Assembly: GCA_018242725.1 (NCBI GenBank)
Contig: JAFEBI010000022.1
Location: 1-64,000 of the forward strand
Source: Nitrospira sp.
GTDB taxonomy: Bacteria; Nitrospirota; Nitrospiria; Nitrospirales; Nitrospiraceae
Length of the DNA: 64,000 nucleotides
Direction of reading: 5' to 3'
In this document: one piece after another, positions 42,839 to 54,183 of the stretch
Layout of the letters: each line of letters starts with the position of its first letter
Numbering within the stretch: position 1 is the stretch's first letter
Position numbers and translations under genes: made by a program
The notes under the pieces: model-generated
The model's input: the letters and a program-made list of their open reading frames with translations, nothing else
Database searches by the model: none
Told to the model about the DNA's origin: nothing

Positions 42839-44773
42839 CTAGAGTCGTTCCTTGTACTTGTCGTAATGCTGCTTCTTGGCTCCCGCGATCCAATTTTCCC
42901 GTTTAATCCGCTCAGGATCGGTCGCGAGTTTCTTGGCGATTTTCTCTACATCTTCCGGTTTCCATCTGGCGATTTGGATAAATGTCCGGGTGCCGAGCTT
43001 TTGCAGAGTCTCAGCAAAGACTGGGCCGATACCCTGGATCTTCTTGAGATCATCGCCTGGCTTGGGCTTGCTGCCTTTGGGAGCACTACCAGGAGGGGGA
43101 GTCTCAGCCCCATTTTGGCGTGGCTGCGGAGCGAGTGTCGTTATCGGAGCAGATGGCATGGCGCGCAGGGTCGCACGCAGTTCTTTGAGGCGTTTTTGCA
43201 GACGTTCGATCTGCTCGTCTTTTTCCGGAATGCCCTGCACCGCTGTCCGGAGGGTCTGGCGTTCCGTGTAGAGCTCCTGTAGCTCGCGCTGGAGGGTAGC
43301 AAGTTGTTCGTCTCGCTCCTGTGCCCGTTGCTCATCAAGGTGATGTTGGGCCTGCAGATCTTCGTGAATCCGGTTCTGTTCGAGGAGCTTCGCGGTCTCG
43401 CGTTCAAGGGTCTGGACGGTTTGTGCGTGGGTACGTTCCCACTCCTTGATTGCCGTTTCCTTCTCACGCAGGAGGTGGGTCACCGGTACCAGCTCCTCAA
43501 TTCGCCGGTCACGGTCGACGAGGGACCGCTCAAGTTGCTGGATGGTGGTGCGATGAGCGGCTTCGCGATCGCTCAACTCGACTTCGAGTTGATGGATGCG
43601 GTCTTGTGCTGCTTCCAGTTTGTTGACTTGGGCACGCAGCCGATCTCGATCGGCTAATCCTTCGTTCAGTTGTGTAATGTGGTCGCGGAGGACACGGATC
43701 TCTTCTTTGAGGACTTCCCGAGCTTGTTCGGCCGCCTGACTGGCCTGCTGGGCTTCTCGCAGTTCATCCGTTTGGGCAGCGGCATTCGCATCAACTTCTC
43801 CAATCCGCTGATCACGGTCGGCGAGGGAACGTTCAAGTTGCTGGATGGTGGTGCGATGAGCGGCTTCGCGATCGCTCAACTCGACTTCGAGTTGATGGAT
43901 GCGGTCTTGTGCTGCCTCGAGTTTGTTGACTTGGCTGCGGAGCCGATCTCGATCGGCTAATCCTTCGTTCAGTTGTGTAATGTGGTCGCGGAGGACACGG
44001 ATCTCTTCTTTGAGGACTTCCCGAGCTTGTTCGGCCGCCTGACTGGCCTGCTGGGCTTCTCGCAGTTCATCCGTTTGGGCAGCGGCATTCGCATCAACTT
44101 CTCCAATCCGCTGATCACGGTCGGCGAGGGAACGTTCAAGTTGCTGGATGGTGGTGCGATGAGCAGCTTCGCGATCGCTCAACTCGACTTCGAGTTGATG
44201 GACGCGGTCTTGTGCCGTCTCCAGCTGCTTGATTTGGTTGCGGAGCCGCTCGCGATCGGCCAAGCCCTCGTTAAGTTGAGCGATATGCTCGCGCAGGACC
44301 CCCACTTCCCGCTCCATGACCTCCCGAGCCTGTTCTGCGTTTCGACAGGTCTGTTGAGCCGTTCGGAGCTCTTGAGTCTGTGCGGCAAGAATCGACTCAA
44401 TTTCGCTCACGCGTCGGCGAGCCGCCGCTCCTTCTCCTTCCGAGGTCGTCAGTTGTTTTGATCGGATCGTGAGTTCTGCTTCAAGGGCTTTGAGCCGCTC
44501 ATTGCGGGCGATCAGCTCACGTTGAGCGGAGGAATGGAGTGTTTCCGACGACATGACCTTTTGTTCAAGAATCTGTACGGCCGACGTTTTGACCTTCAAA
44601 TCGTGCGCCATCGCATCCAAGGCCTGCTCTTTGGTTCGTAAGAGACCTACGGCCTCATGAGAGGGCTGCTCCGGTGAGCGCGTGGGAATTCGCCGCAACC
44701 ACCGGCCGACTCCGAACCCTATTCCGGCTGCAATGAAGAGACATCCGATCATTTGGCTAATCAGCGTCAGCAT
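42839..44773 (-). CDS. membrane-anchored long coiled-coil protein with C-terminal helix-hairpin-helix domain
   Basis: A 644-residue protein. A TM helix (about 4-24: LISQMIGCLFIAAGIGFGVG) is followed by a shared paralog segment (AHDLKVKTSAVQILEQKVMS). Three 101-residue repeats begin near 160, 261 and 362, each with LREHIAQLNEGLADR-type starts and HQLEVELSDREAAHRTTIQQ. A variable Pro-rich linker (about 545-575) leads to a helix-hairpin-helix domain (KKIQGIGPVFAETLQKLGTR, about 577-596) and a basic end KKQHYDKYKERL. The last part resembles COG3743-type H3TH domains that may bind DNA. It lies directly after the OmpA-type gene (gap of three bases) and has a soluble paralog upstream. Confidence 0.85.
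   Translation of the reverse strand: MLTLISQMIGCLFIAAGIGFGVGRWLRRIPTRSPEQPSHEAVGLLRTKEQALDAMAHDLKVKTSAVQILEQKVMSSETLHSSAQRELIARNERLKALEAELTIRSKQLTTSEGEGAAARRRVSEIESILAAQTQELRTAQQTCRNAEQAREVMEREVGVLREHIAQLNEGLADRERLRNQIKQLETAQDRVHQLEVELSDREAAHRTTIQQLERSLADRDQRIGEVDANAAAQTDELREAQQASQAAEQAREVLKEEIRVLRDHITQLNEGLADRDRLRSQVNKLEAAQDRIHQLEVELSDREAAHRTTIQQLERSLADRDQRIGEVDANAAAQTDELREAQQASQAAEQAREVLKEEIRVLRDHITQLNEGLADRDRLRAQVNKLEAAQDRIHQLEVELSDREAAHRTTIQQLERSLVDRDRRIEELVPVTHLLREKETAIKEWERTHAQTVQTLERETAKLLEQNRIHEDLQAQHHLDEQRAQERDEQLATLQRELQELYTERQTLRTAVQGIPEKDEQIERLQKRLKELRATLRAMPSAPITTLAPQPRQNGAETPPPGSAPKGSKPKPGDDLKKIQGIGPVFAETLQKLGTRTFIQIARWKPEDVEKIAKKLATDPERIKRENWIAGAKKQHYDKYKERL
43490..44296 (-). 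repeat. 303-bp tandem repeats in the 644-residue coiled-coil gene
   Basis: The units beginning at 44296, 43993 and 43690 each span 101 codons, the last being partial. The second and third are almost identical at DNA level: long stretches of 43661-43900 recur unchanged 303 bases further on. This implies recent duplication or gene conversion and makes unequal recombination likely. Confidence 0.85.
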
Positions 44774-44776
44774 AGA

Positions 44777-45709
44777 TCATGTGGTCCTTATCATGAGCAA
44801 CTCGATCCGTTGATTCTGTGGGAGGCCCGGTTGATATTTTCTATTTGAAAGCGGACGCGTCGATCCATAGCCGATGGTGGTAAACGGGTTGGTGAGCCCA
44901 TGGTCGGTCAGGTATTGCTTGACCGCATCGGCGCGTTGCCGGCTCAACCGTAAGTTGTGCTCGGCCGCACCACCGATATCGGTATGACTTGCGATCTCAA
45001 TAGGCGCAGCCGGAGCTTTTCGAAGCAGGACGACAATGTGATCCAGGACCGCCTGACCTTTGGCCGTGAGTGCGGCGCTGTCTGGCTCGAATTCGATCGA
45101 GGATTTTGTAAGGACCTGATTCAGTGACAACTGGAGGGCCGTCAGTGAAACGGACGCGGGAGATACGGCCGTCGCTCGTGCAACCATCACGCGGTCTTCA
45201 AGTTTTAACCCCGCTCGAATTGCCGGCGCCATCACCTGGAGAACATCGGCCTTTTCTCGAGGACTTGTGACCTGACCGGTCACAACCAGTGAATGTCCGT
45301 CAATAATGATGGAGCCACGTTCGACCATCCAGCCTAAGATCGGTAGGAGCTGTGGAATGGTGTCCACCCATGCCGCCGCACCGACTTGCGCGTCGACAGT
45401 GAACTGGTCAGTTACATGGATTCCCTTTTTGGCATACAGGGCATGCGCCTGCTCAAGAATCGAGGTCTTGCTCCGCTGGGTGGGGAGTGAGCCTCGAAAT
45501 ATCAGGGTATTTTTTTCGAAGCTGACATAAAGCGAAGCTGGTGCGACAGCTGTGGCCCGTGATTGTGAAGGGAGATGTCGGGGAATGCACACCACGGCAA
45601 GCAGCATCAGCGCAGCGAACCCGCCGGCAAGAATTCTTGCACGCCTCATGAACTCGTCCCGTTCACCATGGGGCTGGTCGCTGTCGTATGGGTCCTGACG
45701 GTACCACAT
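44777..45709 (-). CDS. OmpA-family protein with BON-like domains
   Basis: A 310-residue protein, or 290 residues if it starts at ATG 45649. A hydrophobic segment (about 27-44, LAGGFAALMLLAVVCIP) anchors it or acts as a signal. Two BON-like segments follow (LYVSFEKNTLIFRGSLPTQR and SIIIDGHSLVVTGQVTSPRE). A C-terminal OmpA peptidoglycan-binding domain has IEFEPDSAALTAKGQAVLDH, IEIASHTDIGGAAEHNLRLS, RQRADAVKQYL and GYGSTRPLSNRK. It should face the periplasm and hold the cell wall. It is encoded between two coiled-coil paralogs, with only three bases to the next gene, so the three probably act together. Confidence 0.88.
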   Translation of the reverse strand: MWYRQDPYDSDQPHGERDEFMRRARILAGGFAALMLLAVVCIPRHLPSQSRATAVAPASLYVSFEKNTLIFRGSLPTQRSKTSILEQAHALYAKKGIHVTDQFTVDAQVGAAAWVDTIPQLLPILGWMVERGSIIIDGHSLVVTGQVTSPREKADVLQVMAPAIRAGLKLEDRVMVARATAVSPASVSLTALQLSLNQVLTKSSIEFEPDSAALTAKGQAVLDHIVVLLRKAPAAPIEIASHTDIGGAAEHNLRLSRQRADAVKQYLTDHGLTNPFTTIGYGSTRPLSNRKYQPGLPQNQRIELLMIRTT

Positions 45710-45962
45710 GTCACGACTATGTACTAGGTGAGAGGTGTTCAGTCAAGCAGGTCAACGACAAGGGGACAGATGCTGCGTGTGGTCCAGGTTCCAATCGATC
45801 TCCGGGGGAGAGATAAAACATCTACGTGCAATATCAAGTCGAATCCGAGCCCAACCGGCAGTCATGACAGAAAGTTCGGTAGACGAATCATATGGTTTCT
45901 GACCAGATAGGGAACTCGCCGTATCGAGGTCACGACCGATCAATGTTCATCGTCAGCGAGGG
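45710..45962. other. intergenic gap inside the coiled-coil locus
   Basis: About 250 bases separate the OmpA-type gene from the upstream coiled-coil gene on the same strand. Only short frames without ribosome sites are present. A separate promoter for the OmpA-type gene could lie here but none is convincing. Confidence 0.4.
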
Positions 45963-48900
45963 TTAGAGCCGTTCCTTGTACTTTTCGTAGTGCTGCTTCT
46001 TTGCTCCCGCGACCCAATTTTCACGTTTAATCCGCTCTGGGTCAGTCTCGAGCTTCTTGGCGATTTTCGCAATGTCTTCTGGCTTCCATCGCGCGATTTG
46101 GATAAACGTGCGGGTGCCCAGCTTCTGAAGCTGGTTGGCAAGGACCGGTCCGATCCCGTCGATCTTTTTCAGATCATCTGCCTGGATGGGCTTATCGCCT
46201 TTAGGCTGCTGTCCGACGGATGAATGTTGCCCGGCCCCGTTCTGGCGTGGAGCGGTGACGGGCTTGCTGACTTTGGGCGATATGGGATTTGGCCCAGCGT
46301 CCTTCTGGCGAAGCGGCTGCAGTGGAGCAGCGGCTGATGAGGGCGTTGCCTTCAGTGCCGCGCGCAGTTCTTTGAGCCGTTTTTGTAGACGATCGATTTG
46401 CTCATCTTTTTCAGGAATACTCTGCGCTTCCTTGCGGAGAGCTTGCCGTTCCATTTGCAGATCCTTCAGCTCTCGCTGGAGGTCGCCAATCCGGGCGTCA
46501 CGTTCGTGCAGCTGTTGTTCGTCAAGTTGATGTTGCGCCTGGAGCTGATCCTGGGTTGCACAGGATTCTTGGAGCTTTGCGGTCTCGCCTTCGAGGTCTT
46601 GCACCGTCCGTGCGTGGGTGCGTTCCCATTCTTTGATCGTGGCCTCCTTTTCATGCAGGAGGTGAGCGACCGGCACCAGCTCGTCGATGCGACGGTCGCG
46701 CTCAGCCAAGACACGTTCAAGTTGTTGGATGGTGCCACGGTGGGCGGCTTCCCGATCACTCAGTTCGACTTCAAGCTGATGCACCCGGTCTTGGGTCTCC
46801 TCCAACTTTTTTACCCTGGCACGGAGCCGTTCTCGGTGGGCGAGGCCCTCATTGAGTTGGGCAATCTGTTCACGGAGGACACGAATTTCCTCCTTCATGA
46901 CTTCCCGAGCCTGCTCGGCCGTTCGACCGGCCTCCAACGCATCCTGAACTTCGTCCGCCTGCACGGCTGCCAGCGAATCAAACTCACTGATCCGACGGTC
47001 TCGCTCTGCAAGAGCCTGTTCGAGTTGCTGGAGCGTGCCGCGATGGGCGGCTTCTCGGTCGCTCAGTTCCACTTCCAGCTGATGCACCCGGTCTTGTGCT
47101 GACTCCAATTTCTCCATGCGGACTCGGACTTGATCCCGGTCCGCCAGCTCCTCATTCAATCGCGCGATCTGTCCACGGAGGACGCGGATTTCCTCCTTGA
47201 AGACTTCGCGGGTCTGCTCGGCGGTCTGACAGGCCTGCTGCGCACCACGGAGTTCATCCGTCTGAGCAGTGGCGCTTGCGTGAAACTCCCCAAGCCGCTG
47301 ATCACGTTCGGCCAGCGTCCGTTCAAGCTGTTGGATCATGCCGCGATGGGCGGCCTCCCGATCACTCAGTTCAACTTCCAGTTGGTGCACGCGGTCTTGG
47401 GTCGCCTCGAGCTTCTTGACTTGGGCTCGCAGCCGGTCTCTGTGGGCAAGTTCTTCGTTCTGTTGGGCAATATGCTCACGCAGGACGCGGATTTCTTCCT
47501 TCTGGACATCGCGGGCCTGCTCAGCCGTTCGACAGGCTTCCAAGGCATCTTGAACCTCGTTCGCCTGTGCGGCCGCAAACGCATCGAATTCCCCGATGCG
47601 ACGGTCTCGTTCCGCCAGAGATTGTTCCAGCTGCTGGATGGTGCCGCGATGAGCGGCCTCCCGATCACTCAGTTCAACTTCCAGTTGGTGCACACGGTCT
47701 TGGGTCGCCTCGAGCTTCTTGACTTGGGCGCGCAATCGGTCTTGGTGAGCGAGGCTTTCGTTCAGTTGGGCAATCTGTTCACGCAGGACGCGGATTTCCT
47801 CCTTCAGGACTTCGCGGGTCTGCTCGGCGGTCTGAGAGACCTGTTGGGCGGTGTGAAGTTCACCCAGCTGGATGGCGGCAAGCGCATCGAATTCCCCGAT
47901 GCGACGGTCTCGCTCCGCCAGGGATTGCTCCAGCTGCTGGATGGTGCCGCGATGAGCGGCCTCCCGATCACTCAGTTCAACTTCCAGTTGGTGCACACGG
48001 TCTTGGGTCGCCTCGAGCTTCTTGACTTGGGCGCGCAATCGGTCTTGGTGAGCGAGGCTTTCGTTCAGTTGGGCAATCTGTTCACGCAGGACGCGGATTT
48101 CCTCCTTCAGGACTTCGCGAGTGTGCTCGGTGGTTCGACAGGCTTCCAGGGCATCTCGAACTTCGTCCGCCTGCGCGGCGGCAAGCGCATCGAATTCTCC
48201 GATGCGACGATCTCGTTCCGCCAGAGATTGCTCCAGCTGTTGGATGGCGCCGCGGTGGGCGGCCTCCCGATCACTCAGTTCGACTTCCAGCTGGTGGACA
48301 CGACCTCGCATCGACTCCAACTCTTTGACTTGAGCGCGAAGGCGTTCTCGAGCAGGGAGGCCTTCGTTGAGTTGAGTGATCTGCTCACGGAGGATGCGGA
48401 TTTCCTCCTTCAGGACTTCGCGGGCCTGCTCAGCCGTCTGACAGGCCTGCTGCGCCGCGCGGAGTTCATCCGCTTGGGCAGCGGCGCTGCCGTCAAACCC
48501 ATCGATTCGCTGATCTCGTTCCGTGAGAAGCTGTTCAAGTTGCTGAATCCTACGGCGATGAGCGGCTTCCCGATCACTCAGTTCAACTTCCAGCAGATGG
48601 ACACGATCTTGTGCCGATTCCAGCTTCTCCATGCGGACTCTGACTTGATCACGGTCCGCCAGTCCCGCATTGAGCTGAGCAACATGTTCCCGCAGCACAC
48701 GAATCTCTTCCTTCAGGACCTCGCGAGCTTGCTGAGCTCCCCGAAGCTCTTCTGTCTGAGCCGCAATGGTTGACTTCAGCTCACCTACCTGTTGTTGTGC
48801 TGCGACTCCATCGGTCTCTATCTCCGTCACTCGCTTCGATCGGAGGGCCAATTCTGCTTCGAGCGCCTTGATCTGCTCGCCGCGAGAGACGAGCTCTCGT

Positions 48901-49097
48901 TGGGCTGAGTTGAACTGCGTTTCCGATGACATGATTTTCTGCTCGAGAATCTGCATCGCCGCAGTCTTTACTTTCAAATCGTGGGACGTCGTTTCCAGTG
49001 TCCGTTCCTTGGTTCGTAGCAGATTGACAAGCTCTTGGTATTGTTGCTCCAAGGAGCCTTTTGGAGGAGGTTGTAGCCATCTACCCAGTGTGCTCAT
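45963..49097 (-). CDS. soluble 1044-residue coiled-coil repeat protein with C-terminal helix-hairpin-helix domain
   Basis: The largest coiled-coil gene here. It lacks the TM helix of its paralog (start MSTLGRWLQPPPKGSLEQQY) but shares the next segment (SHDLKVKTAAMQILEQKIMS). Seven 101-residue units begin near 135, 236, 337, 438, 539, 640 and 741, marked by LRE(Q/H)IAQLNE, HQLEVELSDREAAHRG and KEEIRV. A Gln/Glu-rich segment and a Pro-rich linker (about 900-970) lead to the domain KKIDGIGPVLANQLQKLGTR, ending KKQHYEKYKERL. The rod could span tens of nanometres, and the end domain resembles DNA-binding H3TH domains. It opens the locus on this strand; AAGGA lies before the ATG. Confidence 0.85.
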   Translation of the reverse strand: MSTLGRWLQPPPKGSLEQQYQELVNLLRTKERTLETTSHDLKVKTAAMQILEQKIMSSETQFNSAQRELVSRGEQIKALEAELALRSKRVTEIETDGVAAQQQVGELKSTIAAQTEELRGAQQAREVLKEEIRVLREHVAQLNAGLADRDQVRVRMEKLESAQDRVHLLEVELSDREAAHRRRIQQLEQLLTERDQRIDGFDGSAAAQADELRAAQQACQTAEQAREVLKEEIRILREQITQLNEGLPARERLRAQVKELESMRGRVHQLEVELSDREAAHRGAIQQLEQSLAERDRRIGEFDALAAAQADEVRDALEACRTTEHTREVLKEEIRVLREQIAQLNESLAHQDRLRAQVKKLEATQDRVHQLEVELSDREAAHRGTIQQLEQSLAERDRRIGEFDALAAIQLGELHTAQQVSQTAEQTREVLKEEIRVLREQIAQLNESLAHQDRLRAQVKKLEATQDRVHQLEVELSDREAAHRGTIQQLEQSLAERDRRIGEFDAFAAAQANEVQDALEACRTAEQARDVQKEEIRVLREHIAQQNEELAHRDRLRAQVKKLEATQDRVHQLEVELSDREAAHRGMIQQLERTLAERDQRLGEFHASATAQTDELRGAQQACQTAEQTREVFKEEIRVLRGQIARLNEELADRDQVRVRMEKLESAQDRVHQLEVELSDREAAHRGTLQQLEQALAERDRRISEFDSLAAVQADEVQDALEAGRTAEQAREVMKEEIRVLREQIAQLNEGLAHRERLRARVKKLEETQDRVHQLEVELSDREAAHRGTIQQLERVLAERDRRIDELVPVAHLLHEKEATIKEWERTHARTVQDLEGETAKLQESCATQDQLQAQHQLDEQQLHERDARIGDLQRELKDLQMERQALRKEAQSIPEKDEQIDRLQKRLKELRAALKATPSSAAAPLQPLRQKDAGPNPISPKVSKPVTAPRQNGAGQHSSVGQQPKGDKPIQADDLKKIDGIGPVLANQLQKLGTRTFIQIARWKPEDIAKIAKKLETDPERIKRENWVAGAKKQHYEKYKERL
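46683..48695 (-). repeat. seven 303-bp repeats in the 1044-residue coiled-coil gene
   Basis: The seven units of 101 codons are in register with no net insertions. Units three and four share most of their sequence, for example REQIAQLNESLAHQDRLRAQ in both, while others have diverged. The repeat gives the opposite strand a long open frame that does not represent a gene. Confidence 0.85.
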
Positions 49098-53757: not shown

Positions 53758-54183
53758 ATGATCTTTCACCTGTCACGTGTTGTTCGCTCATTCATCTGTG
53801 TGGGAGGGGTCGTGAGCCTGATGGGCTGTGACTACTGGCCGCCGGCACTACAAGATGAGATTGAACAGTTACGTGCCGAAATTCAAACGCTGACGATGGA
53901 GAAAGTGCAACTGCAGGCTCAAGTGGTTGACTTGACCAGAGTGAAGCAGGAACTTCAGGGACAGATGGATGATCTGAGTCGAACAAATCGCGAGAAAAGC
54001 ATCATCATTAGTGGATTACAGAGCCAGTTAGAAACATTGCGTATCAAAGCGGTCAAGGCCATGAGTCCTAAATCATCGACTCACAAAGGTTCTTCCAAAT
54101 CATCTGGGACCTCCACGTCCAAGGGTGCACCGAAGTCGTCGGGAAGCAAACATCCATCTCCACGATCCATCGGAGTGCGATAG
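53758..54183 (+). CDS. small coiled-coil lipoprotein
   Basis: A 141-residue protein. The N-terminus has a signal peptide ending in a good lipobox (VVSLMGC, cysteine near residue 24). A coiled coil follows (about 30-95: DEIEQLRAEIQTLTMEKVQL). The tail is a Ser/Lys-rich low-complexity stretch (KSSTHKGSSKSSGTSTSKG). It is probably an outer-membrane lipoprotein of structural type, like Lpp-like spacers, but it has no known family. The convergent FmdB-type gene ends 14 bases away. Confidence 0.72.
   Translation: MIFHLSRVVRSFICVGGVVSLMGCDYWPPALQDEIEQLRAEIQTLTMEKVQLQAQVVDLTRVKQELQGQMDDLSRTNREKSIIISGLQSQLETLRIKAVKAMSPKSSTHKGSSKSSGTSTSKGAPKSSGSKHPSPRSIGVR

Follow-up and report, generated by a model that had tools for sequence, protein, structure and literature searches.

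A conserved pairing of an ArfA-like OmpA protein with membrane-anchored coiled-coil rods in Nitrospira suggests a wall-tethered inner-membrane scaffold

The window analysed here, a stretch of 64,000 nucleotides from a Nitrospira sp. contig (JAFEBI010000022.1, assembly GCA_018242725.1), contains three co-directional genes on the minus strand (42839-49097), read in the order CC1, OMP, CC2 (Table 1). As originally predicted, the three open reading frames encode one soluble and one membrane-anchored rod on either side of OMP: a hydrophobic N-terminal helix is present in CC2 and absent from CC1. A ribosome-site-like AAGGA within the 3′ end of OMP precedes the CC2 start. Elsewhere in the window, downstream of purD, positions 53758-54183 encode a small protein, putatively a lipoprotein, that contains a short coiled coil.

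Table 1 Features of the CC1-OMP-CC2 locus (positions in the window).
Feature	Position	Strand	Basis or remark
CC1, soluble coiled-coil protein, 1044 aa	45963..49097	-	ORF; H3TH-type domain at C-terminus, no membrane helix
CC1 coiled-coil repeat, 303 bp (101 aa), 6.4 copies	46685..48611	-	repeat analysis
CC1 H3TH-type end domain, 71 aa	45966..46178	-	sequence homology
OMP, 310 aa, ArfA/OmpATb-like	44777..45709	-	membrane helix, two BON-like units, OmpA domain
OMP membrane helix, aa 15-40	45590..45667	-	hydrophobic segment
OMP BON-like units, aa 59-105 and aa 113-176	45182..45535	-	secondary structure; Foldseek match 2kgs/2ksm (ArfA B domain)
OMP OmpA domain, aa 189-306	44792..45145	-	Asp244 and Arg259 at diaminopimelate-binding positions
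OMP stop to CC2 start, 3-bp gap	44774..44776	-	sequence read directly
CC2, membrane-anchored coiled-coil protein, 644 aa	42839..44773	-	ORF; H3TH-type domain at C-terminus
CC2 membrane helix, about aa 4-22	44708..44764	-	hydrophobic N-terminal segment
CC2 coiled-coil repeat, 303 bp (101 aa), 2.6 copies	43498..44299	-	repeat analysis
CC2 H3TH-type end domain, 71 aa	42842..43054	-	sequence homology

The middle protein was expected to combine BON content with an OmpA domain of the peptidoglycan-binding type, and it does. Its OmpA domain passes the Pfam OmpA model (65.4 bits, cut-off 27.2), and two BON-like units lie upstream. Nearly every orthologue retains the wall-site Asp and Arg: a motif search finds the Asp in 22 of 24 loci, and in the alignment of OMP orthologues Arg259 is invariant and Asp244 is replaced by Glu or Gly in single sequences. 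Over the BON and OmpA parts, that is, the entire periplasmic portion, OMP matches Rv0899 (ArfA/OmpATb) with an E-value of 5e-23 by sequence and 4e-13 by fold. Against the ArfA model NF051434, however, it scores 38.9 bits and does not reach the curated cut-off of 81 bits. Since it falls under this cut-off and its operon partners differ, we class OMP as ArfA-like rather than as ArfA.

The mycobacterial arf operon has a role in pH or ammonia handling, and nitrification is the Nitrospira way of life. Together with the OMP architecture and its best solved match, ArfA/OmpATb, this raises the idea that the locus encodes an envelope system like ArfABC that handles pH or ammonia, with OMP doing the work and the rods being accessory. 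Besides the shortfall against NF051434, the operon partner of OMP is a coiled-coil H3TH protein and some genomes have a rod without OMP, which makes this idea very improbable. Inspection of the gene content of the loci revealed no ArfB or ArfC neighbour of OMP; the flanking genes are the membrane-anchored coiled-coil H3TH partner, purH, dnaE and accA.

The two rods prove to be repeat-built coiled coils, as predicted, with an exact unit of 101 aa (303 bp) and a hydrophobic periodicity far stronger than in shuffled sequence. This period is 3.485 residues, giving 29 turns per repeat. Spectral power at the coiled-coil period reaches 7.6 in CC1 and 5.8 in CC2, and thus exceeds all 300 shuffles (maximum about 2.0), so that the coiled coil is not a product of chance. 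Pfam matches of the rods (Apo-CIII, GAS, Metalloenzyme) and SMC-like NCBIfam matches were discarded as effects of coiled-coil composition. Rod length varies between species, often in steps of 101 aa (CC2 of 442, 542-543, 643-644 or 745 aa). Assuming a fully extended coiled coil with 0.15 nm per residue, the CC2 rod would measure roughly 70 nm and each repeat about 15 nm. A test for concerted evolution showed little of it: units are 77% identical within one gene, barely above the 74% found against orthologue units in other species, so homogenisation is weak. Single recent duplicates do occur (98% identity in CC2). In five loci (L065, L069, L070, L072, L082) the rod genes are broken within the repeats by frameshifts or N runs, reflecting either decay or assembly collapse.

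At their N-termini, the CC1 orthologues share the start MSTLxxWLQ without a membrane helix. The CC2 orthologues begin with a membrane helix. In the CC2 of the window this helix is followed by RWLRR, which by the positive-inside rule suggests a cytoplasmic C-terminus.

At the other end, CC1 and CC2 carry the same H3TH-like domain, as had been predicted (71 aa, 87% identical), and this domain has H3TH-type relatives among known proteins. Its assignment to the H3TH type (COG3743) follows from sequence homology to the C-terminal domains of NuoE (9wqv_a, E 3e-12), of the RC-LH1 protein-O (8yy9_O, E 1e-11) and of the phasin PhaH; PhaH and some ribosomal proteins (L21/S2) are matched at their C-termini through NCBIfam. 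The structure model of the end domain is all-helical with a mean pLDDT of 65, and a fold search with this low-confidence model returned no match. The conserved residues of the domain are Trp, Leu and Ile, together with a QIAxW core. In a phylum-wide sample, the domain was found in 53 of 295 genomes, all from one family.

The original prediction took these ends to bind DNA and the rods to link wall, membrane and DNA. A wall-to-nucleoid tether would use the helix-hairpin-helix and basic tail of the H3TH-type ends to connect the chromosome with the inner membrane and peptidoglycan. In its favour, the Nitrospira CC1 and CC2 domains have a GIG hairpin and a net charge of +6, weak profile similarity links the domain to the DNA polymerase IV HhH (E 0.005) and Pfam HHH_5 (E 0.001), and the rods have the length needed to reach the nucleoid. 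The basic tail is indeed present in the window (net +4 over the last 25 residues), but not every relative retains it. Moreover, the net charge of the domain ranges from -5 to +7 over the family: it is -3 to -5 in a sister genus (g12) and 0 to +3 in a triple-H3TH protein described below. In another genus the hairpin is GID instead of GIG. Hence, the conserved GxG hairpin and basic surface that would mark a DNA-binding HhH domain are not found over the family. In addition, the strongest relatives are the C-termini of NuoE, protein-O, PhaH and L21/S2, so that the domain is seen attached to complex I, to a photosynthetic reaction centre and to a phasin. Because charge is not conserved, DNA binding is disfavoured as a general role and unlikely as the conserved one, though the proteins of the window may still bind it; the rod tips probably do not hold DNA as such. 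With DNA binding by the end domain not supported, the wall-membrane-DNA link stands unproven, and we consider the nucleoid tether unlikely.

The same relatives invite another reading: the end domain would serve as an adaptor to the ribosome or to a membrane energy complex, and the module would give such a complex its spatial order at the wall. In alphaproteobacteria the domain is appended to the complex I subunit NuoE, to the reaction-centre protein-O and to ribosomal proteins; here, however, the module has no linked gene for a respiratory-complex or ribosomal partner, and the domain has no known function in NuoE, protein-O or ribosomal proteins either. We give this reading a low probability. 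In the reaction centre of Dinoroseobacter shibae, protein-O consists of membrane helices, a flexible linker and an H3TH-type domain that is not visible in the structure map, and the authors called the role of such C-terminal domains “obscure” (PMC12079452). Our literature search on H3TH/COG3743 returned incidental mentions only.

Orthologues of OMP occur in 17 of the 34 other genomes of the genus (59 relatives sampled), and a public genome collection yields 24 records, each from a Nitrospira or Nitrospirota genome. Among 24 Nitrospira loci, 22 have the membrane-anchored coiled-coil H3TH gene after OMP with a spacing of -4 to +14 bp. The two exceptions are L075, whose contig stops 81 bp past OMP, and L082, where the OMP frame continues into the rod gene. 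Conserved gene order, on which the original prediction was staked, is observed: CC1-OMP-CC2 occurs wherever the contig allows, apart from the exceptions named here, and in Nitrospira loci it sits between the purH/regulator side and dnaE-accA. The envelope module is conserved and restricted to one family. Within the genus it is nevertheless dispensable, since the end domain is unmatched in at least 14 genomes with completeness of at least 93%. At least two genomes retain CC1 alone with an OMP relic at this locus, so CC1 can persist there without OMP. These are L110:9038-11206 and, on a single-contig genome, L112:6684-10073, where a soluble CC1 (722 and 1129 aa, respectively) and the relic stand directly before dnaE. 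A separate oddity is L077:8936-13120, a single open reading frame in which a CC2 start is in frame with a DnaE missing its N-terminus; as DnaE is normally essential, this fusion is probably a misassembly.

OMP and the membrane-anchored rod stand alone in ten inspected loci from the family's other genera, as well as in Nitrospira CG24E, at the purH/dnaE site where the contig shows it and with a spacing of -4 to +35 bp. In many Nitrospira, OMP remnants lie directly upstream of CC1, comprising the N-terminal membrane region, the C-terminal OmpA tail, or both; a search for such a relic upstream of CC1 in the window found none. In addition, the CC1 start resembles the stretch after the CC2 helix. 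The ancestral unit thus appears to be a two-gene operon of OMP and membrane-anchored rod, and the simplest history would be a tandem duplication of this unit, after which the first OMP collapsed and the first rod lost its membrane helix. The trio had been read as a three-part design, and this does not survive: the OmpA protein between two rods is a product of duplication and hence no evidence of such a design. More generally, tandem duplication of a two-gene operon can yield a misleading three-gene layout. The end-domain tree intermixes CC1 and CC2 (5 label changes, at least 3 of them forced) and therefore does not fix the age of the duplication or any later exchange between the two. In a sister genus, L103:6638-10691 holds an independent second tandem OMP-rod copy, whose second rod frame is short (126 aa).

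A second pairing of the same kind exists in this genome. On contig C29, a gene for a 184-aa membrane-anchored OmpA protein is followed by one for a 664-aa protein with three end-domain copies (L014:11262-13816), in which VEVPVE-rich repeats replace the 101-aa coiled coil. This pair also occurs in other Nitrospira, usually with overlapping genes. Two paralogous pairings make a functional link between a wall-binding protein and an H3TH-type membrane protein likely. At L106:7587-8771, the second pair has lost its OmpA domain: the first helix is joined directly to the triple-H3TH protein, so that a single 394-aa protein holds both membrane segments, which fits an in-out then out-in topology. Near the C29 pair, L014:5419-10751 encodes a TIR-like protein and then a 1457-aa repeat protein (TPR-like by eye).

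OMP (dN/dS 0.11-0.20) and the end domain (dN/dS about 0.12) both have low values, which shows that they are maintained. These values bear on whether these are decaying, repeat-driven paralogues without current function, as the OMP relics, gene losses, frameshifts and variable repeat number might suggest. With clear purifying selection on OMP and on the end domains, and with the pair retained across several genera, decay is extremely improbable.

The best-supported reading, towards which we incline slightly, is that a duplicated two-gene module builds a scaffold in the inner membrane that is tethered to the wall and carries cytoplasmic rods of variable length, each with an adaptor domain as its cap. 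OMP would be anchored in the inner membrane, its BON and OmpA domains reaching into the periplasm, where it would hold peptidoglycan. CC2 would contact OMP and span the same membrane in the opposite topology, so that its coiled-coil rod projects into the cytoplasm, the number of 101-aa repeats setting the rod length and the H3TH-type cap serving as adaptor to some partner in the cytoplasm. CC1, a CC2 copy minus the membrane helix, would probably co-assemble with CC2 or extend the rod. The conserved OMP/rod pair, the second pair with its fused form at L106, the ArfA match, the kept Asp and Arg, purifying selection, and the coiled-coil period and repeat steps of the rods support this scaffold; the loci L110 and L112 without OMP, the dispensability of the module, the Asp244 variants and the frameshifted rods weaken it. 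A bolder version is a trans-envelope tether of tunable length, in which peptidoglycan-held membrane complexes use repeat-built rods of defined length to fix how far from the wall the nucleoid, or some other large body in the cytoplasm, is kept, and in which soluble CC1 lengthens or cross-links the rods. This version seems to us quite unlikely.

Literature searches found no description of OMP combined with an H3TH-capped rod; the domains are known and their combination is apparently undescribed. If the scaffold reading is right, a dominant group of nitrifying bacteria owns a wall-to-cytoplasm scaffold, and the conserved OMP/rod pair offers a concrete partner set for learning the role of a widespread, unexplained end domain.

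Several known systems share parts of this arrangement. Crescentin and FilP, bacterial coiled-coil cytoskeletal proteins, have long rods in common with CC1 and CC2, a likeness of shape for which we claim no homology; to our knowledge, they lack an H3TH end and an OmpA partner. The alphaproteobacterial NuoE, protein-O, PhaH and L21/S2 fusions share the COG3743-type domain of 60-70 residues, but have neither long coiled coil nor OmpA partner, and their domains are less basic than the Nitrospira CC copies. MotB and TssL, found as matches to the OmpA region, combine an inner-membrane helix with a periplasmic OmpA domain like OMP and anchor an assembly to the wall. Unlike OMP, they have no BON units, and the OMP locus contains a rod protein rather than motor or secretion genes. 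ArfA/OmpATb (Rv0899; PDB 2l26, 2kgs, 2kgw) comes closest in architecture: OMP matches its order of membrane helix, BON-type B domain and OmpA C domain, and the wall-site Asp and Arg occupy corresponding positions with a 15-residue spacing in both. On the other hand, the two proteins are just 25% identical over the fold alignment, and where ArfA shares its operon with ArfB and ArfC, OMP is instead partnered by a membrane-anchored coiled-coil H3TH protein.
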